The notes under the pieces are model-generated. The model searched no databases and had not been told where the DNA came from. It was given only the letters and a program-made list of their open reading frames with translations. Below, piece by piece: positions 9,030 to 22,278 of a stretch of 33,505 nucleotides of DNA (the stretch's first letter is position 1; the number at the start of each line of letters is the position of its first letter). Both the position numbers and the translations under genes were made by a program. Source of the DNA: an uncultured Spirochaetaceae bacterium (GTDB lineage: Bacteria; Spirochaetota; Spirochaetia; Sphaerochaetales; Sphaerochaetaceae). The stretch lies in NCBI GenBank assembly GCA_944389075.1, contig CALXLA010000018.1, positions 1-33,505 on the forward strand, read 5' to 3'.

Positions 9030-9482
9030 ATGCAGTTACTTACAGGGATGTATAAAGCGAAGATCGATGATAAAGGGCGTCTGTCTTTGCCTGCAAGACT
9101 AAGGACTGCATTGGCATCCAATCAGGTAGTTGTGCTTCCGGGACTGGATGAGAACCACCTGATGCTGATGACACCTGAGTATTTTGAGAAGGACTTCTGC
9201 GAGCCAATTCTCTCATCCCCTATGGCAATGCTCGATCAGAAGAAACGCAGCCTTATCAGAAAGCTCATATCACCAGCTCAGTATGTGGATATCGACAGTG
9301 CTGGAAGAATCGGCATACCGCTCACAGTGAGGGAGAAGTATTCGCTCCCGAACAAAGGAGAGGCTCTCTTCGTAGGTACAGGCTTTGCGATTGAGCTCTG
9401 GAATCCGGCTGTCTATGAATCATTCGATGACGGAACGTCGATTTCTGACCTTGCGCAGAGCCTGCTTGAGGAGAGGGAGTAA
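9030..9482 (+). CDS. mraZ: Transcriptional regulator MraZ
   Basis: MraZ is a ring-forming DNA-binding protein that autoregulates the division and cell wall (dcw) operon. The 150-residue product has the two expected SpoVT/AbrB-like half domains, each with a DxxGR motif: DDKGRLSLPARLR (about 12-24) and DSAGRIGIPLTVR (about 90-102). Tandem MraZ boxes with 10-bp spacing lie immediately upstream. The start ATG follows TAGGTAGGA. It is the first gene of an operon that probably runs to flhF at 20395, and its stop overlaps the rsmH start by 1 nt. Confidence 0.95.
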   Translation: MQLLTGMYKAKIDDKGRLSLPARLRTALASNQVVVLPGLDENHLMLMTPEYFEKDFCEPILSSPMAMLDQKKRSLIRKLISPAQYVDIDSAGRIGIPLTVREKYSLPNKGEALFVGTGFAIELWNPAVYESFDDGTSISDLAQSLLEERE

Positions 9483-10366
9483 TGGAAATCAGGCACTATC
9501 CTGTCATGCACAAGGAGGTCCTTGAGTATCTTACGATACCGCAAGGAAAAGCATGCATGATAGACTGTACGACAGGAGAGGGTGGGCATACCAGCCTCTT
9601 CCTCTCTAATTATCCGGATCTCAGCATAATCGGCCTTGACAGGGATAAGGAGATACAGAAGAAAGCCATCGAGAGACTTTCTGCTTTCGCGCCTCGCTTT
9701 ACTCCGGTACTATCGTGGTTCGATGAGTATCTTGCCTCAGCTGAGACTGAATCCGCAGATGCGGTTCTTTTCGATTTAGGGATTTCGATGTTCCACTACG
9801 CGGAGAGCGGCAGGGGCTTTTCATTCAAAAGCGATGAGAAGCTTGATATGCGTCTCAATACGGATGGCGGCATGAGCGCGGCAGATGTGGTCAACGGCTA
9901 CAGTGAGGAAGCTCTTGCGGATGTCATCTACCGCTATGGAGAGGAACGTTATTCACGACGTATTGCGAGAGCAATAGCCGATAGAAGGAAGGAAAAGCAG
10001 TTCGAGCTTTCCTCCGATCTTGCCGATGTGATAGCCGCATCGGTTCCTGGGCAGTACAGGCATGGAAGGATACATCCTGCGACAAGGACCTTCCAGGCAC
10101 TGAGAATAGAGGTGAATGGGGAGCTTGACAGGATCAAGCCGGCTTTGGGGGAAGCCGAAAGGGTACTCAGGCCAGGTGGAAGGATCGCAGTGATCACATT
10201 CCATTCGCTTGAGGACAGGATAGTGAAATGGTTCTTCAAGGATGAAGAGAGAGAGGGAAGAGTGAGGATCCTCACGAAAAAGCCCATAGTCCCTTCTGAT
10301 GAGGAAATCGCAGAAAACGCACCCTCGCGGAGCGCAAAGCTTAGAGTGGTGGAGAAGGTGTTATGA
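9482..10366 (+). CDS. rsmH: 16S rRNA (cytosine-N4) methyltransferase RsmH
   Basis: RsmH (MraW) methylates N4 of cytosine 1402 in 16S rRNA using S-adenosylmethionine. The 294-residue product is close to normal length. It has the SAM-binding segment MIDCTTGEGGHTSLFL (about 23-38), the LDRD segment, LFDLGIS, and the family signature ATRTFQALRIEVNGEL. The second position of mraZ-rsmH-ftsL is the conserved dcw arrangement. A GAGGAGAGGGAG ribosome-binding region lies in the mraZ end. It overlaps the next gene by 4 nt (ATGA). Confidence 0.96.
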   Translation: MEIRHYPVMHKEVLEYLTIPQGKACMIDCTTGEGGHTSLFLSNYPDLSIIGLDRDKEIQKKAIERLSAFAPRFTPVLSWFDEYLASAETESADAVLFDLGISMFHYAESGRGFSFKSDEKLDMRLNTDGGMSAADVVNGYSEEALADVIYRYGEERYSRRIARAIADRRKEKQFELSSDLADVIAASVPGQYRHGRIHPATRTFQALRIEVNGELDRIKPALGEAERVLRPGGRIAVITFHSLEDRIVKWFFKDEEREGRVRILTKKPIVPSDEEIAENAPSRSAKLRVVEKVL

Positions 10367-10638
10367 ATGATATAGAAGTCGGAAGAAAGCTGTCTCGGCC
10401 ATACAAGGCTCTGATTGTCGCCTTGCTTACGCTGAGCTTCATCATCGTATTCCTCCCATTGTGGCAGATGGGATCGGAAAGCACGCTTTCTGTTAAAGTT
10501 GCATCGGCTGATGAGGCCTATGCTGATGAGGATGCGCAGAGAAGGGCCCTCAGGGCTGCGATTGCAGCAGGTGAGCCTGATATCGAAGAGCAATATTTCT
10601 TCAGTGCAGGTATATCTAGAAACGATTATTTGAGGTAA
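10363..10638 (+). CDS. ftsL: Small single-pass membrane protein at the FtsL position
   Basis: This 91-residue protein has a basic N-terminus (1-15), one membrane segment (about 16-35) and a short extracytoplasmic tail of about 55 residues rich in acidic residues and Ala. FtsL is the bitopic coiled-coil subunit of the FtsQLB divisome complex that activates FtsWI. Position right after rsmH and topology support an FtsL assignment. However, the tail lacks an obvious leucine zipper and is shorter than usual, so sequence alone does not prove it. Start ATG overlaps the rsmH end and follows GGAGAAGG. Gene symbol is by position. Confidence 0.5.
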   Translation: MNDIEVGRKLSRPYKALIVALLTLSFIIVFLPLWQMGSESTLSVKVASADEAYADEDAQRRALRAAIAAGEPDIEEQYFFSAGISRNDYLR

Positions 10639-10641
10639 TCT

Positions 10642-11817
10642 TTGCTTGATATGCCAAAAGAACAGATCAGCTATGATGATATAACATACAAGGTCGGCAA
10701 CAATGGCGATAAATCAGGTTCATTATCGCCATTTACATTTCTCTGTCTTGTGCTGGTGCTTGCGCTTTTCGGCCTTGTACAGCTTTACAGCGTCTCCTTC
10801 CCGATAGCAGTCAGGGAAGGACTCAGTCATTATCATTATTTCCTGCTTCAGGTTATAGCAGCCGGCTTTGGGCTTGCAGCTGGGCTTGTTCTTTATTTCA
10901 TTCCGCTCAAGGCAATAAGGAAGCTCTATTTCGTATTCTATCCTGTTGCCATAGCATCTGGCATACTTATCCTTTTCCCGCAGTTCTCCGAGGATGGATA
11001 TCTGATTGTCGATTCAATCCGCATCGCATCTCCGGGATCTCTTGCTGCTGTTGCCGCAGCTTTCATGGCTGCTGACATAATACCTGAGCCGGACAGCATC
11101 GGAGGCGGACTTGTCAGGGAATATGTCCTTTCCTTCATATTCCTTACAGTCCTTCTTGTTCTCACGCTTTTCTCATCAGGGCTTTCCTGGTTCATCATCA
11201 TCTCCATGATAGTGCTATCTGCATATGCCATCAAAGGAACAGGTAAGGTTGCTGTCGCAGTATATGCTGTTCTTATTGCTGCTTGCGCCGCAGTGCTTTT
11301 CGCCCTTTTTGATTCCATATCGGATCCTGTTCTCGCATCCATCGTCCCCTCGTCAGGAATGAAGCTGTATGACAGCGATCTCAGCCGGGCGCTTCTGTCA
11401 TTCGCAGATGGCGGAATCGCGGGCAAGGGGCTTGGCAGCGGTCTTGAAGATCCCTTTTCATATGGCAGTGCTGAAAGCATCTTCATATTTCCTTCAATCG
11501 CAAGGGAACTCGGTGCGAATGGCTGTGCTTTCATTGTGATACTCTTCGCATTTGTGATGCTTATCGGGGTCAGGACAGCGATGAGGGCTCTCAGGAGGGA
11601 AGACCTGCCTTCCGCAACTCTCGTTCTTTCGCTGACTCTTGTCCTTGTGCTCAAAGCTGTACTGAATATGCTGTATGCATCAGGGCTTCTTCCTCTTCCG
11701 GGAGTCCTTCTTCCGTTCTTCAGCTATTCTGTTTCGGAGGAGGGCATGAACATAGCTGTGTCTGTCCTCCTGTACAGGATGATCTACATGATAGGGAGGG
11801 AAAATGCACAGGGCTGA
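10642..11817 (+). CDS. ftsW: FtsW-family SEDS protein with degenerate active site
   Basis: SEDS proteins (FtsW, RodA) are multi-pass membrane glycosyltransferases that polymerise lipid II together with a class B PBP. The 391-residue product has about ten hydrophobic segments from residue 31 on and recognisable SEDS landmarks: GGIAGKGLG (257-265), ELG (289-291) and the C-terminal GLLPLPGVLLPFFSYS. The catalytic surroundings are lost. The family LPEaHTDFIFAVIGEELG motif reads SYGSAESIFIFPSIARELG, putting Ile280 where the essential Asp should be and Arg for the first Glu. The GARRWI...PSE region is also unrecognisable (about 119-133), and SYGGS near the end has become SYSVS. Polymerase activity is therefore doubtful; a scaffold role is inferred. 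The TTG start at 10642 has GAGGT 5 nt upstream; ATG 10651 is the alternative. Confidence 0.8.
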   Translation: MLDMPKEQISYDDITYKVGNNGDKSGSLSPFTFLCLVLVLALFGLVQLYSVSFPIAVREGLSHYHYFLLQVIAAGFGLAAGLVLYFIPLKAIRKLYFVFYPVAIASGILILFPQFSEDGYLIVDSIRIASPGSLAAVAAAFMAADIIPEPDSIGGGLVREYVLSFIFLTVLLVLTLFSSGLSWFIIISMIVLSAYAIKGTGKVAVAVYAVLIAACAAVLFALFDSISDPVLASIVPSSGMKLYDSDLSRALLSFADGGIAGKGLGSGLEDPFSYGSAESIFIFPSIARELGANGCAFIVILFAFVMLIGVRTAMRALRREDLPSATLVLSLTLVLVLKAVLNMLYASGLLPLPGVLLPFFSYSVSEEGMNIAVSVLLYRMIYMIGRENAQG

Positions 11818-12493
11818 GAAAGCAGGATCGTTATTCATCCTGGCAATGCTGACATCCGCGGCTGTATATGCAGCGCTTTCATATATGCCGTTCTCAGCTA
11901 TCACATCAGTCTCTGTCGACGGGACTCCTTCTCTTGAGAGGATTTTCCTTCCTCTTGCGGGAAGCTCCTATCTCTCATCCAGACGGTTCTGGGCTGAGAT
12001 CGCGGCTTCCGCATTGCCCTATGTCGATGATGTATCCATCGCATTGGATAATGGAAAAGCCAGTGTCGCGGCAGAATACAGGAAAGATGGCGTCATGATC
12101 GCCTCACATGAGAAAGTGTATATCGTATATCCTGATTCTGCAGAGGAAATAGATTTCGAAGATGTGCCGTTCCTGATGGGACTCTATCCGATAGTCGAGG
12201 TTGGTGATGACTTCATCGGAGATCCATACAGGAGGGATGTCATAAGAGCTGCCAGGGAGCTTTCAGGGCTTTCAAGCTTGATAACCTGGATGGAATACTG
12301 CAATAATCTTACTGATGGATCATCGGCATTGATAATCGATCTTCCGGTATTCAGGGCAGAGCTTGCAGTAAGGGATGTGGTTTCAGGAACTGATATCAGG
12401 GAGAGTATAGCAATGATCAGCAGGGAAGCAGATCCTGCATATGCTGATGAAGCGCATTACGAGCTCTTTTCTGATGGTCTGGTCAGGGTATAG
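11804..12493 (+). CDS. ftsQ: FtsQ/DivIB-like bitopic division protein
   Basis: The 229-residue product has a short N-terminus, one membrane helix (about 8-28), and then an extracytoplasmic domain. That domain begins FSAITSVSVDGTPSLE, resembling the POTRA start of FtsQ/DivIB. FtsQ links FtsK, FtsL, FtsB and FtsW at the septum. Its place between ftsW and ftsA is the canonical ftsQ position. The extracytoplasmic part is somewhat short and shows no other diagnostic motif, so the symbol rests mainly on context and topology. GGGAGGGAAA precedes the ATG, which overlaps the ftsW end by 14 nt. ftsA starts 13 nt later. Confidence 0.6.
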   Translation: MHRAEKAGSLFILAMLTSAAVYAALSYMPFSAITSVSVDGTPSLERIFLPLAGSSYLSSRRFWAEIAASALPYVDDVSIALDNGKASVAAEYRKDGVMIASHEKVYIVYPDSAEEIDFEDVPFLMGLYPIVEVGDDFIGDPYRRDVIRAARELSGLSSLITWMEYCNNLTDGSSALIIDLPVFRAELAVRDVVSGTDIRESIAMISREADPAYADEAHYELFSDGLVRV

Positions 12494-12506: not shown

Positions 12507-13736
12507 GTGTCAGATAAGACTCTTGTTGGATTGGATATAGGAACAAGCTGGACCAGGGCTGTCATAGGGACTGTTTCCAAAGATGGACAGCTCATGATTG
12601 AAGCGATCTCCGAGCGTTCCTCCGAAGGAGTGAAAGCGGGATCAATTGTCAATATAGAGCAGACACTCAAAGTCATAAACAGCACTGTATCGGATGCTGA
12701 GCTGCAGGCAGGGACAGAAGTCTCATCTGTAATACTCGGAGTAGGTGGCGACCATATAAGGGGGATAACCTCTTCCGGCGTCGTAGGCATACAGTCGAAG
12801 AATCAGGAGATAAAGAGGGAGGATATAAGGCGTTCGATTGATGTCGCACGCGCACGCGATCTTCCGCAGGATACGGAGATCCTCCATACTCTTGTCCAGG
12901 ATTTCCAGGTCGATTCACGTTCCGGGATAAAGGATCCCATCGATATGCTTGGCCACAGGCTCGATACAAGAGTCCTGCTTGTCACAGGTGCATCGTCCAT
13001 CTGCCAGAATCTCCGCAAGTGTGTTCAGAAAGCGGGGCTTCAGGTCCAGCGCATGATACTCCAGCCGCTTGCAGACAGCGAGGTGGTGCTCAGTACGGAT
13101 GAGAAGGAGATGGGAGCCATAGTGATAAATATCGGCTATGGCTGCACGAATGCGATTGCCTATGTCCAGGGTGCGCCTGTGTATGTGGGTGGTATAGCAT
13201 TGGGCAGTGACAGCGTCACCGGTGATATCGCATATATGCTTCAGGTTCCGCGTACGGCTGCCGAGTCCATAAAGATATCAGATGGATGCTGTCATACGCC
13301 TTCTGTTTCGGATTCTGAGATGATAGTGACTCCTGCTGTGGGTGGAAAGCCTGCGATACGCCTTCCGAAGAAGGAGCTTTCAAAGCTCATCGAGCCCCGC
13401 ATGGCTGAGATCTTCTCCATCCTCTCATCGGAGATCGAGAAGAATGACATCCAGGGTTCTTTCGGAGCCGGCGTGGTGCTTGTCGGAGGCGGAGCGCTTC
13501 TGTCAGGAGCTACGGAACTTGCATCGGAGATCTTCAGGCTTCCTGCGCGCATAGGATTCCCTGAGGCGATAAATGGTCTGGACAGGATGTATATAGATCC
13601 GAGATATTCCACGCTTCTGGGACTCCTGAAAATGGAGGCGAAGAAATATAAGGAGAACACATCGCTTTCATCTGGCCATAAGGATGATGGCAGCATAGGT
13701 GGCAAGATAAGGAATCTTTTCGGGAAGCTGTTTTAA
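12507..13736 (+). CDS. ftsA: Cell division protein FtsA
   Basis: FtsA is the actin-fold ATPase that tethers FtsZ filaments to the membrane. The 409-residue product shows the N-terminal phosphate 1 motif LVGLDIGTSWTRAVIG (about 7-22), the shuffled 1C subdomain region, and a late phosphate 2 segment GAGVVLVGGGALLSG. It ends GGKIRNLFGKLF, the amphipathic membrane-targeting helix expected of FtsA. The start is GTG after AAGGGGATAGG. It precedes ftsZ by 11 nt in the usual order. Nothing here looks degenerate, unlike the wall-synthesis proteins around it. Confidence 0.96.
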   Translation: MSDKTLVGLDIGTSWTRAVIGTVSKDGQLMIEAISERSSEGVKAGSIVNIEQTLKVINSTVSDAELQAGTEVSSVILGVGGDHIRGITSSGVVGIQSKNQEIKREDIRRSIDVARARDLPQDTEILHTLVQDFQVDSRSGIKDPIDMLGHRLDTRVLLVTGASSICQNLRKCVQKAGLQVQRMILQPLADSEVVLSTDEKEMGAIVINIGYGCTNAIAYVQGAPVYVGGIALGSDSVTGDIAYMLQVPRTAAESIKISDGCCHTPSVSDSEMIVTPAVGGKPAIRLPKKELSKLIEPRMAEIFSILSSEIEKNDIQGSFGAGVVLVGGGALLSGATELASEIFRLPARIGFPEAINGLDRMYIDPRYSTLLGLLKMEAKKYKENTSLSSGHKDDGSIGGKIRNLFGKLF

Positions 13737-13747
13737 AAGGAGCATAT

Positions 13748-15007
13748 ATGGGCATGGATTTTGATATTTTCGATATTGAAGACGCAGCGGCAAGCGAGCA
13801 GACTGCACCTACGATAATCAAGGTAGTGGGAGTAGGCGGAGGCGGTGGCAACGCTATCAACAGGATGATTGCATCAGGGCTTAAGAAGGTTTCCTTCATA
13901 GCTCTCAATACCGATGTCCAGGCTCTCCAGCGCTCCAATGCGCAGACGAGAATCGCAATCGGAAAGGAAATAACAGGGGGCCTTGGGGCCGGTGGAGTTC
14001 CTGAGATAGGCGAGAAGGCAGCTCTTGAATCGAAGGATGAGATAAGGGCAGAGCTCGAGAATGCCGATATGGTATTCATCACTGCGGGTATGGGAGGCGG
14101 TACAGGAACAGGAGCCGCTGCTGTCGTTGCAGAGATCGCAAAGAGCTGTGGCGCTCTTACTGTTGCTGTTGTTACGACGCCATTCGCATTCGAGGGAAAG
14201 AAGAAGCTCGTCCTTGCACATCAGGGCATAGACAGGCTTCGTAAGCAGGTTGATACGCTTATCCTCATCCCTAACCAGCATCTTCTCAAGGTCGTAGAGA
14301 ACAATACCCCGATCCGTCAGGCATTCCTGATTGCAGACAGTGCGCTCCTTCAGTCTGTCCAGGGAATATCCGATCTGATTACCGAGCCTGGTGAGATCAA
14401 TATCGATTTCGCTGATGTGAAGACGATAATGAAGGGCAAGGGTGATGCCCTTATCGGACTTGGATTCGGCGAAGGCGAGAACAGGGCAGTGGATGCCGCG
14501 AAGCTTGCCATTTCCAATCCTCTTCTTGAGAATGCCAGCATCGATGGTGCGAAGTCAGTCCTCGTCAATCTCGCAGGCGGCGACAATCTTACCCTGCAGG
14601 AGTATCAGGATGTGGTTGAGCTCATCACCTCGAACTGCGCGGATGATGCGCTGATCATCGCAGGCCAGAGCTATAACCAGAGCCTCGGAGACAGGATAAA
14701 GGTGACAGTTGTCGCAACTGGATTCGAGTCAAAGCCGGAAGCTTCTGCGGAAATAGATCCAGATACAGAGGTATTCAGAAGAAAGCCTGCCGAGCCTGTA
14801 CAGGAGAAGGCTCCGGAACCTGCTGCTGTGCAGTTCCATCGTGAGGAAAAGCCGAAGCCGGCAGAGAAACAGAGCTCAGATCCTTCAGCTATCACCGTCA
14901 ACAGGTGGCAGGATCTCCAGCAGCAGCTTGGCAAACGCAATGCGCAGCAGAATGACTATTCGATACCTGCAGTGCTCAGATATGCACGCCACGATGATGA
15001 AGAATGA
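13748..15007 (+). CDS. ftsZ: Cell division protein FtsZ
   Basis: FtsZ is the tubulin-like GTPase forming the division ring. The 419-residue product has GVGGGGGNAIN (28-38), the G-box GMGGGTGTG (114-122), NTD in IALNTDVQAL, and the T7 synergy loop NIDFADVKTIM. After the globular core comes a variable Pro/Glu-rich linker (about 335-400). The C-terminal peptide is YSIPAVLRYARHDDEE, close to the conserved IPxFLRrR tail that binds FtsA. A strong AAAAGGAG precedes the ATG. The last 11 nt overlap the Xer gene that follows. All features of an active, FtsA-binding FtsZ are present. Confidence 0.97.
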   Translation: MGMDFDIFDIEDAAASEQTAPTIIKVVGVGGGGGNAINRMIASGLKKVSFIALNTDVQALQRSNAQTRIAIGKEITGGLGAGGVPEIGEKAALESKDEIRAELENADMVFITAGMGGGTGTGAAAVVAEIAKSCGALTVAVVTTPFAFEGKKKLVLAHQGIDRLRKQVDTLILIPNQHLLKVVENNTPIRQAFLIADSALLQSVQGISDLITEPGEINIDFADVKTIMKGKGDALIGLGFGEGENRAVDAAKLAISNPLLENASIDGAKSVLVNLAGGDNLTLQEYQDVVELITSNCADDALIIAGQSYNQSLGDRIKVTVVATGFESKPEASAEIDPDTEVFRRKPAEPVQEKAPEPAAVQFHREEKPKPAEKQSSDPSAITVNRWQDLQQQLGKRNAQQNDYSIPAVLRYARHDDEE

Positions 15008-15907: not shown

Positions 15908-16567
15908 ATGAGATCACTCATGTCGGATGAAAGGCTCGTATACGAAGGAAATGGATTCGTATACAGGGGAGCATTGCCTTCCTGCGATGCGGTGCTCTTT
16001 GCTTCATATGGGAGGAATTCCAGCGCATCATGCGCCATGTATCAGTCTGCGCTTGAGGCTGCAGCTTCAGGCTATGATGGAGTGAATATCGCGGAGAATT
16101 CCGGTAACAGGTCGGTACTGAAGGGATATGAGGATGGAGGAGGCAGGCTTTATGTCGTCACGGCTCTCTCCATGGATGAGTACGAGAGGCGCTTTCCGGA
16201 TATCCTCAGGAGGATAATGCTGACAGGAGGTGGCCTCATCGCACCATCTCTGACCAGTGGAAACAGGGATAAGGCATATGAGATAGCATTATCGTTCTCT
16301 TCTATGCTGATGGTCTCATCATCTGCTGGATTCCTTCCGCAGATTGTATCACGGGCAATTGATTCCGGTCTTGATGTATACATGCTCAGAGCATCGCTTG
16401 CTGACAAGGCAATGAGGAGGCTCTTCAGGGAAGGCTGTCCTTCCGTGCAGTCATTCTCGTCCATTTTCCAATATCCTGATGCAATTGCATATGAAGACAA
16501 TGAGGACGGATGCTATAATTTCCTTTCGAAGGGCTATAGCATAGTTAGGGCTGATGAGACAGATTGA
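15908..16567 (+). CDS. Decayed DprA/Smf-like Rossmann protein
   Basis: DprA loads RecA on incoming single-stranded DNA during transformation. The 219-residue product keeps the outline of the DprA Rossmann fold. DAVLFASYGRNSS (27-39) matches the first strand. RLYVVTALSMDEYERRFP (80-97) matches the stretch with the ...YP box, and GGLIAP (108-113) matches the ...llSE segment. From residue 118, GNRDKAYEIALSFSSMLMVS through GLDVYML matches RNRiIAgLS...vlVvEa...gR.VfAvPG. Key signatures are missing: the SGlArGiD loop, the Arg pair of FPxRNR and the SGSLiTA loop. It sits just before xerC-hslV-hslU, as smf precedes codV-clpQ-clpY in Bacillus. Likely a diverged or non-functional DprA. It overlaps the next gene by 14 nt. 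Confidence 0.55.
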   Translation: MRSLMSDERLVYEGNGFVYRGALPSCDAVLFASYGRNSSASCAMYQSALEAAASGYDGVNIAENSGNRSVLKGYEDGGGRLYVVTALSMDEYERRFPDILRRIMLTGGGLIAPSLTSGNRDKAYEIALSFSSMLMVSSSAGFLPQIVSRAIDSGLDVYMLRASLADKAMRRLFREGCPSVQSFSSIFQYPDAIAYEDNEDGCYNFLSKGYSIVRADETD

Positions 16568-19306: not shown

Positions 19307-20395
19307 ATGCAATACTACACAGTTGTCGGCGATTCATATGATGCAGCGGTGAACAAGGCGAAGGAGATGTACGGATCCGATGTCCGCATCATCTCCAGAC
19401 GCGATTATACTACCCGTGGCGGTCTTTTCCTCAAGAAGGAGACCCGCTGCGAGATCGTATGCTACCTTCCGCCTGGAACTGCGGCGAAGAAATCCAGCAG
19501 GAAAGATCTCAAGGAGTTCGAAGCTGAGGCGAAGACGCCGGATCCTGATACGCTTACCCATGCAGAAAGGCTCAATACTGAAGTCTACAGGGAAGAAGAG
19601 GAGAGCGAGAGCCTGAAGAAGGCAAGGCTGCTCCTTCAGGATAATCATATCACCCCGCCTCTTTCCGATAAGCTTCTTGAGGATCTTCCCCAGGATAAGG
19701 ATCCAAGCACTGTCCTTCCGGACAGGATCGTTCGTCTTACTCCATCGGACTATGCGATGCAGGTGCATCCGAGGCATTTCGTCGTCTTCCTTGGGCCTAC
19801 AGGATCTGGAAAAACGACTACGCTTGCGAAGGCTGCTGATCTTTATGCGAAGGCCGGGAAGCGTACCGCGATCATAACGCTTGATACATTCCGGACAGGA
19901 GCATATGAGCAGATCAGAGCATTCGGGGATGCGCTCTCCATCCCTGTGCTGAAAGCAGGGGATGAGGGAGAGCTCCTTTCAGCAACAGAGCAGTTCTCAT
20001 GGAAGGACATAATATTCATAGATACGATGGGTGTATCTCCGAAAGACCAGGAGCTTAATCTGAGGCTCAGATCCCTTCTTGATGTCCTTGACCGTGACAG
20101 AACCAACTTCATGCTCACGCTTTCTGCCTCGATGAAGGAGGAAGATGCGATGGAGCAGCTCTCATCTTATCAGCAATATACGCCGCTTTCGCTTGCTGTG
20201 ACAAAACTTGATGAGACCGAGACTATCGGGAATGTCCTTTCTTTCTCATACAGAACATCGATTCCGATCATCTTCTTCACCAATGGGCAGAAGGTCCCTG
20301 ATGACATAAGGAAGGCCTCAGGTGAGGTTATACTTGAGAATCTGAAGTCCTTCGGACTGGATATGAAGAGCTATAAGTCGCAGATCAGGAGATGA
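19307..20395 (+). CDS. flhF: FlhF-type SRP-like GTPase
   Basis: FlhF is the third SRP-family GTPase, usually placing or limiting polar flagella. The 362-residue product has the FlhF N-terminal segment (YYTVVGDSYDAAVNKAKEMYGSDVRIIS), a charged linker (about 60-150) and an NG domain. Walker A is GPTGSGKTT (163-171), DTFRTGAYEQIRAFG follows, then the G3 site IDTMGVSPKDQEL, where Met replaces the usual Ala of DTAG, and G4 TKLDETETIG. It sits at the end of the division operon, 2 nt after hslU, with no flagellar gene in the window. If the host is non-motile it must do something else. The last 11 nt overlap the convergent PBP remnant. No good ribosome-binding site is seen. Confidence 0.85.
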   Translation: MQYYTVVGDSYDAAVNKAKEMYGSDVRIISRRDYTTRGGLFLKKETRCEIVCYLPPGTAAKKSSRKDLKEFEAEAKTPDPDTLTHAERLNTEVYREEEESESLKKARLLLQDNHITPPLSDKLLEDLPQDKDPSTVLPDRIVRLTPSDYAMQVHPRHFVVFLGPTGSGKTTTLAKAADLYAKAGKRTAIITLDTFRTGAYEQIRAFGDALSIPVLKAGDEGELLSATEQFSWKDIIFIDTMGVSPKDQELNLRLRSLLDVLDRDRTNFMLTLSASMKEEDAMEQLSSYQQYTPLSLAVTKLDETETIGNVLSFSYRTSIPIIFFTNGQKVPDDIRKASGEVILENLKSFGLDMKSYKSQIRR

Positions 20396-21233
20396 TCTCA
20401 TCGCTGAATGCATCTGCGATTGCTTCTATCGAGCTTTCATCAGCAGAGTAATATGAGAGTCCTGAGATCCCCGTCCTGCTTTCGATGGGGATTTTGTCGT
20501 TGCTGCTGTAGATTGTCGTGCCATCATGAGTCTTTACCGACTTTACGAGGAATGCGAGCATCGGTGCAGGTATTTCGCCTGACCATGCGATTATGAAGCC
20601 ATCGCTGATTACTGCAGCAGGTGCATCCAGTCCCAGACTTTCGAGCCTTAGCTGGGCTTCCTTGTCTATCGTGAGATATACATCGTTTCCGAATGAAGCG
20701 GAAGGATAGCGTCCCTCATCGGCATCAAGGCTGTCCTGGCAGAGCCTCTCAATGCCTGAGATTCCGTTGAAATCCTCATCGACCTCACCTATGAAAGCAC
20801 TGCCGGTTATTGTCTTCCTGTCCTCTTTCCTTGCAAGTATCAGCTCATTGCTGAGGTCTGCTTGCCAGAGCATCTTCTCGATTTCTTCCGCATCTTCCCT
20901 GGATGGGATCATCGTGATCGGTATGAATTCCTGTCCGTCGCTTATCTTGCGCTCGACAGAGATCGCATTCTCTTCTGTGAATCTGGATATGAAAGATGCT
21001 TCTTTTGCCGGATCGCTGCCATCTGCTATGAAGCCATAGTCAGGGGCTTGTATGGCAAGTATCTCGCCATTCCTGTCGTATATCGTACCGCGTACTGCGG
21101 TAGAATAGAGCCCTTCTTCGTAGTGTGTTCCGAATAGCGGCAGATAGTATACGCGCAGCAGGACAGCCAATAGCATAAGCGATACAGCGGCTGCTATTGC
21201 TTTGACTCTTGGCTTATTGCCTTTCTTATTCAT
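20385..21233 (-). CDS. Class B PBP remnant: membrane anchor and pedestal, no transpeptidase
   Basis: The 282-residue product starts with a basic tail and one membrane helix (about 11-30). The hallmark class B PBP motif RGTIYDRNGEILA (48-60) follows, and later GISGIERLCQDSL (157-169) and DVYLTIDKEAQ (184-194), the end of the dimerisation or pedestal domain of FtsI/PBP2. A full protein would continue for over 300 residues of transpeptidase; here only about 85 remain. These have one strand-like piece (AAVISDGFIIAWSG, 206-219) and no SxN or KTG triad. The gene is not cut by the window edge: it ends on a stop overlapping flhF by 11 nt. It may still dock to the FtsW-like SEDS protein. The ATG is 8 nt from a TATTAT box and lacks a Shine-Dalgarno. 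Identity as a PBP derivative is strong; function is inferred. Confidence 0.85.
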   Translation of the reverse strand: MNKKGNKPRVKAIAAAVSLMLLAVLLRVYYLPLFGTHYEEGLYSTAVRGTIYDRNGEILAIQAPDYGFIADGSDPAKEASFISRFTEENAISVERKISDGQEFIPITMIPSREDAEEIEKMLWQADLSNELILARKEDRKTITGSAFIGEVDEDFNGISGIERLCQDSLDADEGRYPSASFGNDVYLTIDKEAQLRLESLGLDAPAAVISDGFIIAWSGEIPAPMLAFLVKSVKTHDGTTIYSSNDKIPIESRTGISGLSYYSADESSIEAIADAFSDEIIS

Positions 21234-21273: not shown

Positions 21274-22278
21274 ATGAGCAGATATAGTTATGATGATATG
21301 CCCCCTGAAGGATATAAGGAAAGGGGTGGTATCAAGAAGGGGTCTTCCCTGATTATCGCATTCATCGGTGTGCTCATAACATTGATTGCAATACTGCTTT
21401 ACCTGATGTTCTCCCCGCAGGGGGAAGGAAAGGAAGCTGAGGTATCCCAGCCTGAGCCTGTCGAGGTCGATATCGCAGAGCCTGATATCATAGAAAGCGA
21501 GATCAGCACAGAAGAGACAGCTGCTGAGGCCATTCCGGCAAAGAGGGAGATCGTTTCCGATTACAAACCTCTAGGCTCTCCTTCTGAATATATCGTCAAA
21601 GAAGGCGATACTCTCTCATCGATTGCTTCTGAATTCTCAGTTTCCGTGGGCACGATCATTGCATGCAACTCCATTACCGATATAAAGGATGTTGTTCCTG
21701 GTCTTTGTCTGCTTATCCCTGAAATAAGCGGGAGCTATTATATAGCTGTAAGCGGCGATACTGCGGATGCTATCGCTCTCCACCGCAATCCCAGCCTCAC
21801 TGGAGATGATATACTCGCTCTCAATGGGCTTGACAGGGATCTTCAGGCAGGAGATAGGATCTTCATTCCATCCCTTGGCTCGAATCTCTCCTCAGGTGAC
21901 AACAGATTTGAGTCGCCTCTTCCTGATGGTGAGGTGATCTACAATTATCTCGATGTCTATGCAGGCAAGGCCCTTACAGGAGTCGTCATTTCAGGTCTTC
22001 CGGGCTCTGCTGTCACGGCATCGGCTTCCGGTCATGTAGTTGATCTTCCGATGGATGATTACGGCAAAGGCGTCAAGATCCTCAATGATGATGGTTACTA
22101 CACAGTCTATGAAGGCCTTGAGATCATCTTCGTGAAGCAGGCAGATAAAGTGGAGAAGGGCCAGCCTATAGGCTCTATAGGCACAAGCCAGATGTACTTC
22201 GGAACTCCTGCGGTGTTCTTCCAGATTGAGCAGGAAGGTGTTGCAATCGATCCTGCTCTCATGGTCGAGGATCTCTGA
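21274..22278 (+). CDS. LysM protein with degenerate M23 (LytM) domain
   Basis: The 334-residue protein has a cytoplasmic N-terminus (1-25), one membrane helix (26-46), an acidic linker (50-95), and a clear LysM (106-150, EYIVKEGDTLSSIASEFSV). A second LysM-like repeat (155-199) follows, then an M23/LytM-like fold (about 228-332). LysM binds glycan; M23 enzymes are zinc peptidases cutting peptidoglycan bridges. Here all metal ligands are replaced: the HxGxD region reads LTGVVIS, the YxHL site reads YEGL, and HLHFE reads AVFFQ (313-317). The closing IDPALM is conserved. It resembles the non-enzymatic LytM activators (EnvC or NlpD type). GGAAGGA precedes the ATG. It is divergent from the PBP remnant and shares its promoter box. 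Confidence 0.85.
   Translation: MSRYSYDDMPPEGYKERGGIKKGSSLIIAFIGVLITLIAILLYLMFSPQGEGKEAEVSQPEPVEVDIAEPDIIESEISTEETAAEAIPAKREIVSDYKPLGSPSEYIVKEGDTLSSIASEFSVSVGTIIACNSITDIKDVVPGLCLLIPEISGSYYIAVSGDTADAIALHRNPSLTGDDILALNGLDRDLQAGDRIFIPSLGSNLSSGDNRFESPLPDGEVIYNYLDVYAGKALTGVVISGLPGSAVTASASGHVVDLPMDDYGKGVKILNDDGYYTVYEGLEIIFVKQADKVEKGQPIGSIGTSQMYFGTPAVFFQIEQEGVAIDPALMVEDL

Follow-up and report, generated by a model that had tools for sequence, protein, structure and literature searches.

A shortened class B PBP gene next to flhF

The window, that is, the whole 33,505-nucleotide stretch of DNA analyzed (contig CALXLA010000018.1), belongs to the 2.23-Mb, 95% complete genome of an uncultured member of Candidatus Ornithospirochaeta, family Sphaerochaetaceae. 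Besides a set of divisome genes, it carries an ORF that had been predicted from the sequence letters to encode a class B penicillin-binding protein (PBP) free of a transpeptidase domain (Table 1). This gene proved to be real. The ORF was recovered with exactly the predicted boundaries, RGTIYDRNGEILA, GISGIER, and DVYLTIDKEAQ were all found in its 282-aa product, with approximately 90 residues following LTID, and no match to the transpeptidase family PF00905 (SxxK, SxN, KTG) was obtained in the protein or anywhere in the genome, using a search that returned matches in 10 of 14 control genomes. The membrane anchor and PBP_dimer/pedestal that define an FtsI-type class B PBP were both present; Pfam PBP_dimer scored above its cut-off (24.8 bits), and a profile of the short-PBP family matched solved structures of FtsI, PBP2, and PBP1 (best E=3e-32). 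Because PF00905 and its three motifs are absent, the product is best regarded, by its sequence, as a derived and non-catalytic orthologue and not as a functional PBP.

Table 1. Coordinates of the short PBP gene, its parts, and neighboring features in the window
Feature	Position	Strand	Basis or remark
rsmH-ftsL-ftsW junction; walled relatives have murF and mraY between ftsL and ftsW	9482..10642	+	Locus comparison
FtsL-like single-pass protein, 91 aa (tentative)	10363..10638	+	Position, one hydrophobic helix, shared PLWQ-type motif
FtsW (SEDS) homologue; catalytic residues lost, predicted pedestal-binding loop kept	10642..11817	+	PF01098, 99.7 bits; residue tables
FtsQ homologue	11804..12493	+	Orthologue by iterated search
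FtsA	12507..13736	+	Domain search
FtsZ	13748..15007	+	Domain search
Conserved hypothetical protein between two tandem XerC-type recombinase genes	15908..16567		No Pfam or NCBIfam match; syntenic across the family
FlhF-like SRP-type GTPase, converging on the PBP gene	19307..20395	+	Syntenic neighbor; not beside the PBP gene in the second clade
Transpeptidase-free class B PBP (FtsI-type), 282 aa	20385..21233	-	PBP_dimer match, family profile, conservation in genus, dN/dS ~0.1
Tail, residues 200-282; putative collapsed transpeptidase domain remnant lacking SxxK, SxN, KTG	20385..20636	-	Alignment and model
Pedestal (anchor and head), residues 44-199; RGxIxDRxG, ERK, GxxGxE, LTID motifs	20637..21104	-	Profile, model, and structural alignment
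Predicted transmembrane helix, residues 8-34	21132..21212	-	AlphaFold2 model m00b09efcfaba, mean pLDDT 91.1
LysM-LytM (M23) protein, divergently transcribed from the PBP gene	21274..22278	+	Domain search

Assignment of the FtsL-like protein is tentative because it had no Pfam match. The FtsQ copy in the window likewise had none, while its orthologue in genus g18 matched POTRA_1, FtsQ-type (1e-7). FtsB/DivIC was matched in genera g14, g18, and g21, with no clear match in the window's genus. The FlhF-like GTPase gene sits between hslU and the PBP gene, although cultured members of the family are described as non-spiral; the account of non-spiral spirochaetes covers cultured species only (PMC12236494). 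On the other side of the PBP gene, the LysM-LytM protein was considered as a further decayed wall gene and rejected, its zinc ligands being missing in walled relatives too. It is kept in genomes with and without a wall and resembles non-catalytic LytM activators.

As originally noted, flhF overlaps the 3' end of the PBP gene, by 11 nt (20385-20395), and this overlap had been read as leaving no room for a transpeptidase. That argument is invalid on its own, since the missing part was lost from within the gene; full-length PBPs of relatives also overlap flhF by a few nucleotides. Alignment with full-length orthologues indicated that what remains after LTID corresponds to the two ends of the transpeptidase domain, its initial strands on one side and its final strand and helix on the other. 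This correspondence is clearest in genera g18 and g21, which retain the terminal SQxKL motif. In an AlphaFold2 model built from 38 sequences (the window plus fetched loci; pLDDT 91), the tail was predicted as a small, ordered alpha/beta sheet. VIA-align paired model residues 47-282 with residues 64-587 of Staphylococcus aureus PBP1 (Z 14, 228 residues, rmsd 4.3), a stretch of PBP1 that extends nearly to the end of its transpeptidase domain. Hence, the description "anchor plus pedestal" captured two parts that are indeed present and missed a third. Given that the tail aligns with both ends of the transpeptidase domain and folds, as modeled, into a sheet, the protein is more than an anchor and a pedestal and is better described as a pedestal with a predicted collapsed transpeptidase sheet of about 80 residues.

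Conservation, selection, and number of losses

We surveyed 139 genomes of the order, all belonging to one family and spanning 22 genera. The protein was found in 120 of these with a single query sequence and in 130 with a profile. In most genera, the ORF encodes ~540 to 580 aa with SVFK, SCN (STN in one), and KTG, and full-length PBPs (~555 aa) occupy the same syntenic place in related Sphaerochaetaceae. PF00905 was detected once per genome in 59 genomes and, in the full-length copies read, was always the syntenic PBP with SVFK, S[C/T]N, and KTG intact. The order xerC-hslV-hslU-flhF, followed by the convergent PBP gene, the divergent LytM gene, and secA, is common to walled genera and the window's genus. 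This shared order makes the short gene an orthologue of a bona fide, motif-complete class B PBP, and it is because of it that the full-length form appears to be the ancestral state at this locus.

PF00905 was found in none of the 48 Candidatus Ornithospirochaeta genomes. The short form was present in 44 of them, at the same locus and with similar size, so that orthologues of comparable length in relatives do exist and the shortened form is conserved. ORFs of this genus were mostly 270 to 336 aa; the few longer ones probably reflect only the choice of an upstream start. Other length groups comprised ~350 to 390 aa (g18 and g21) and 472 to 478 aa (genomes G004 and G006). The short PBP was an intact ORF in most of the 44 genomes, with reading frames open throughout, and dN/dS for close species pairs was 0.08 to 0.14, pedestal and tail alike. 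The short PBP is therefore under strong purifying selection. A full-length PBP at this locus in relatives, with a recent deletion here, had been named as the finding that would overturn the original prediction. The first part does apply to other genera. The deletion, however, does not date from recent times: the short PBP is conserved and long established, and it is not a deletion artefact.

In a maximum-likelihood tree of FtsA and FtsZ (41 genomes, midpoint root), the window's genus was placed beside the walled genus g2, while the genera g3, g4, g8, g14, g18, and g21, all of which lack the peptidoglycan precursor pathway, fell into a group of their own. This tree requires three changes of transpeptidase state, namely two total losses plus the change in G004 and G006. 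Placing all pathway-less genomes in a single clade was rejected (p-AU 2e-69, FtsA+FtsZ tree), and with it the idea that all genera without the transpeptidase share a single ancestral loss. By this phylogeny, the transpeptidase appears to have been lost totally and independently at least twice; given the midpoint root and the long g3 end branch, the split between the two groups is firmer than the exact count of losses. In the second clade, flhF no longer adjoins the PBP gene, and the PBP gene stayed; linkage does not explain its retention.

Peptidoglycan precursor genes and the fate of FtsW

The 139 genomes were searched for the transpeptidase, FtsW, YkuD, Mur ligases, MraY, MurG, the class A transglycosylase, and MurJ. 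The occurrence of the transpeptidase, MraY, MurG, and MurJ was scored in the 75 genomes that were ≥90% complete and ≤5% contaminated, counting strong matches only for MurG and MurJ. All four were present in 40 genomes and none in 32; one genome lacked MraY alone, and two (G004 and G006) lacked a proper transpeptidase alone. Where all four were missing, the pedestal protein was kept in 32 of 32 genomes and FtsW in 30 of 32. Mur ligase matches numbered ~5 per walled genome vs ~1 in pathway-less genomes, where the single remaining Mur_ligase_M match is presumably FolC. Neither MraY nor a convincing MurG was found in any of the 48 members of the window's genus, many of them 93 to 99% complete. Weak MurG and MurJ matches in this genus (~18 to 55 bits) were rejected as true enzymes and look like paralogues of the same superfamilies. 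Seven further MurJ-like matches (86 to 113 bits vs 229 to 332 in walled genomes) look like relics; these weak, full-length proteins are kept in G036, G049, G054, G060, G065, G068, and G072, all of the window's genus.

Other routes to a crosslinked wall were also considered. The class A transglycosylase PF00912 was absent from all 139 genomes, which rules out a class A PBP elsewhere in the genome; therefore, the family relied on one SEDS-bPBP pair. L,D-transpeptidase crosslinking was likewise rejected, since YkuD occurred in only 2 of 139 genomes. A literature search, which covered few subscription papers, returned no paper describing peptidoglycan loss in Candidatus Ornithospirochaeta.

No cultured representative of the genus was encountered. 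Those genomes that could be named are metagenome-assembled genomes or bins, some of them fragmented, which would favor the genes only seeming to be missing through assembly, binning, or search artefacts. Such an explanation is hard to credit, however, given that the transpeptidase, MraY, and a convincing MurG were found in 0 of 48 genomes despite the high completeness of many, that the short PBP is intact in most of the genomes carrying it, and that rsmH, the FtsL-like gene, and ftsW are contiguous without murF-mraY in the window and several relatives. Although absence from a profile search is no proof, the absence recurs here in 48 genomes and for several pathway enzymes. The lipid II pathway (MurC-F, MraY, MurG, and MurJ), whose absence marks a wall-less bacterium, is missing by these searches.

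The FtsW homologue of the window belongs to PF01098, and its best NCBIfam match was ftsW at 128 bits, under the curated cut-off of 337.5. Nearly all FtsW copies from walled genomes scored 250 to 310 bits against PF01098 (two fragments scored lower) vs 28 to 154 bits for pathway-less copies. Residue roles were taken from published work on FtsW (PMC8765783, PMC8078798, PMC8998562), and Escherichia coli numbering was assigned by motif; the offset stayed at 14 throughout extracellular loop 4. The window FtsW has no equivalents of E. coli D297, R137, W138, Q147, E150, Y242, R243, R246, G380, and G381, and it thus lacks the catalytic residues expected of a SEDS glycosyltransferase. Seventy columns were near-invariant in 24 FtsW from pathway-bearing genomes. 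Among 21 pathway-less FtsW, the catalytic columns (E. coli R137, W138, Q147, E150, Y242, R243, R246, D297, and G380) were kept in 0 to 24%, and the columns of extracellular loop 4 (ECL4; E. coli 270-289, including the G282 position) in 57 to 100%. In E. coli, this ECL4 segment meets the FtsI pedestal and FtsL, with G282 a reported FtsL contact (described among PMC8765783, PMC8078798, and PMC8998562). Loss of active-site positions alongside retention of contact positions is the pattern that would be expected of a scaffold. Decay is uneven, since the catalytic Asp is still present in five FtsW, all from one subclade of the genus, and seven genomes keep a weak MurJ-like protein. Those MurJ-like carriers whose FtsW was checked (G060, G065, and G068) also retain the Asp.

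With the precursor pathway missing and the catalytic residues of FtsW lost, peptidoglycan is probably absent, and there would be nothing to polymerize. This bears on the original proposal that a pedestal-only PBP binds a SEDS partner without crosslinking activity. The expected partner is retained, as FtsW, beside ftsQ-ftsA-ftsZ, and the pedestal is a known allosteric activator of SEDS proteins through ECL4 (PMC8078798, PMC8765783), the segment conserved here. Stimulation of FtsW to polymerize uncrosslinked glycan is nevertheless very improbable in a genus that lacks MraY and MurG, has only ~1 Mur ligase, and has lost the FtsW catalytic residues; gene content contradicts it. The scenario could instead fit G004 and G006, which combine a Mur pathway and an intact FtsW with a degenerate transpeptidase. 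In these two genomes of genus g2 (loci L098/L132 and L097/L133, respectively), the Mur genes, MraY, MurG, MurJ, and all FtsW catalytic residues are kept, while the PBP (472 to 478 aa) is devoid of SxxK, SxN, and KTG. They may make uncrosslinked glycan or crosslink it otherwise; G006 encodes one YkuD protein (L123).

Could the pair simply be on its way out after peptidoglycan loss? Graded PBP lengths (270 to 478 aa), low FtsW scores, and the failure to detect FtsW in some pathway-less genomes (g22) would suit slow pseudogenization, yet we judge it distinctly unlikely, as constraint extends across pedestal and tail with frames open throughout, the PBP is kept in every good pathway-less genome across two independent clades, and it stayed in the second clade after flhF had gone from its side. 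Also unlikely, if a little less so, is a new enzymatic or transport role in which FtsW and its pedestal cofactor act on another lipid-linked polymer. The two proteins are retained together, and one subclade still has both a weak MurJ-like protein and the FtsW Asp; against this, the cavity residues lost in the 21 pathway-less FtsW were replaced diversely, with no single new set. In G136, G137, and G138 (g22), FtsW, the transpeptidase, and MraY were undetected and pedestal matches were weak. G121 (g19; 3.9 Mb), a genome with three Mur ligase matches, lacks PBP, FtsW, and MraY; it perhaps does not belong in the family.

A candidate wall-independent division module and its relatives

The most probable reading, which we hold with reasonable though not full confidence, is that FtsL, FtsQ, FtsW, and the FtsI pedestal persist as a divisome scaffold without enzymatic activity, coupled to FtsA and FtsZ. 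The gene is the orthologue of the single, FtsI-type class B PBP of Sphaerochaetaceae, its transpeptidase lost by internal deletion and decay, and gene content shows that the entire route to peptidoglycan precursors was lost along with it. Purifying selection has preserved the anchor, the pedestal, and the shrunken transpeptidase sheet. FtsW, for its part, has lost substrate-cavity and catalytic residues and kept the extracellular-loop segment that, in E. coli, meets the pedestal and FtsL. The proposed mechanism places the FtsW-pedestal pair, FtsL, and FtsQ in a scaffold that would span the membrane of the probably wall-less cells, connect the FtsA-FtsZ ring with the periplasmic side, and assist in assembling or triggering constriction, an old signaling or tethering function kept with no glycan made. 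We put at about even the further proposal that the FtsWI synthase was turned twice, independently, into a purely structural division module whose enzyme sites were erased, whose FtsW-pedestal-FtsL contact surface was kept, and whose leftover sheet became a small binding module. If true, FtsQLWI would have a function in Z-ring constriction independent of wall synthesis.

These data suggest that gutted FtsI and FtsW have a division job that does not involve making a wall, and that an animal-gut spirochaete genus is without a beta-lactam target of the penicillin-binding-transpeptidase type. Walled bacteria offer little opportunity to test whether FtsW and FtsI do more in division than build septal wall, as the loss of either one also halts wall synthesis. 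In these spirochaetes, both enzyme activities and their substrate seem to have been removed at least twice in evolution and the proteins kept; surviving residues would mark the wall-independent function and vanished ones catalysis, a natural separation-of-function set for the SEDS-bPBP interface.

Like FtsI/PBP3 and other class B PBPs, the short protein has a transmembrane anchor, the pedestal motifs and predicted fold, an expected FtsW partner, and an orthologous locus in walled relatives. Unlike them, it has no SxxK, SxN, or KTG, its transpeptidase domain is reduced to ~80 residues, and its genome is without peptidoglycan precursor genes. Within the same family, Bullifex porci and Sphaerochaeta/Parasphaerochaeta are walled and have spherical cells; Sphaerochaeta coccoides was reported to have a single TPase (PMC4423922), and B. 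porci carries murA-G, murJ, and mraY and has detectable muropeptides (PMC7738495).

Studies of walled bacteria show that FtsI and FtsW act in recruitment and regulation as well as in catalysis (PMC8998562, PMC9426605), and S. aureus PBP1 keeps regulatory roles without transpeptidase activity (PMC9426605). S. aureus PBP1* and Bacillus subtilis PBP2B, as cited in PMC9426605, have a division role partly independent of catalysis, as proposed here. However, those proteins were inactivated by mutation in the laboratory, in walled species that have further PBPs, whereas the present genus has lost the domain in nature and retains no crosslinker. Some Buchnera and Spiroplasma likewise combine FtsZ-type division without peptidoglycan with a reduced divisome, and how Buchnera divides without peptidoglycan has been described as not understood (PMC10591338). 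According to the same source, Buchnera of this type have no transglycosylases or transpeptidases at all (PMC10591338), whereas here a gutted FtsW and FtsI, FtsQ, and an FtsL-like protein are kept, and so the spirochaete arrangement seems to be a different one.
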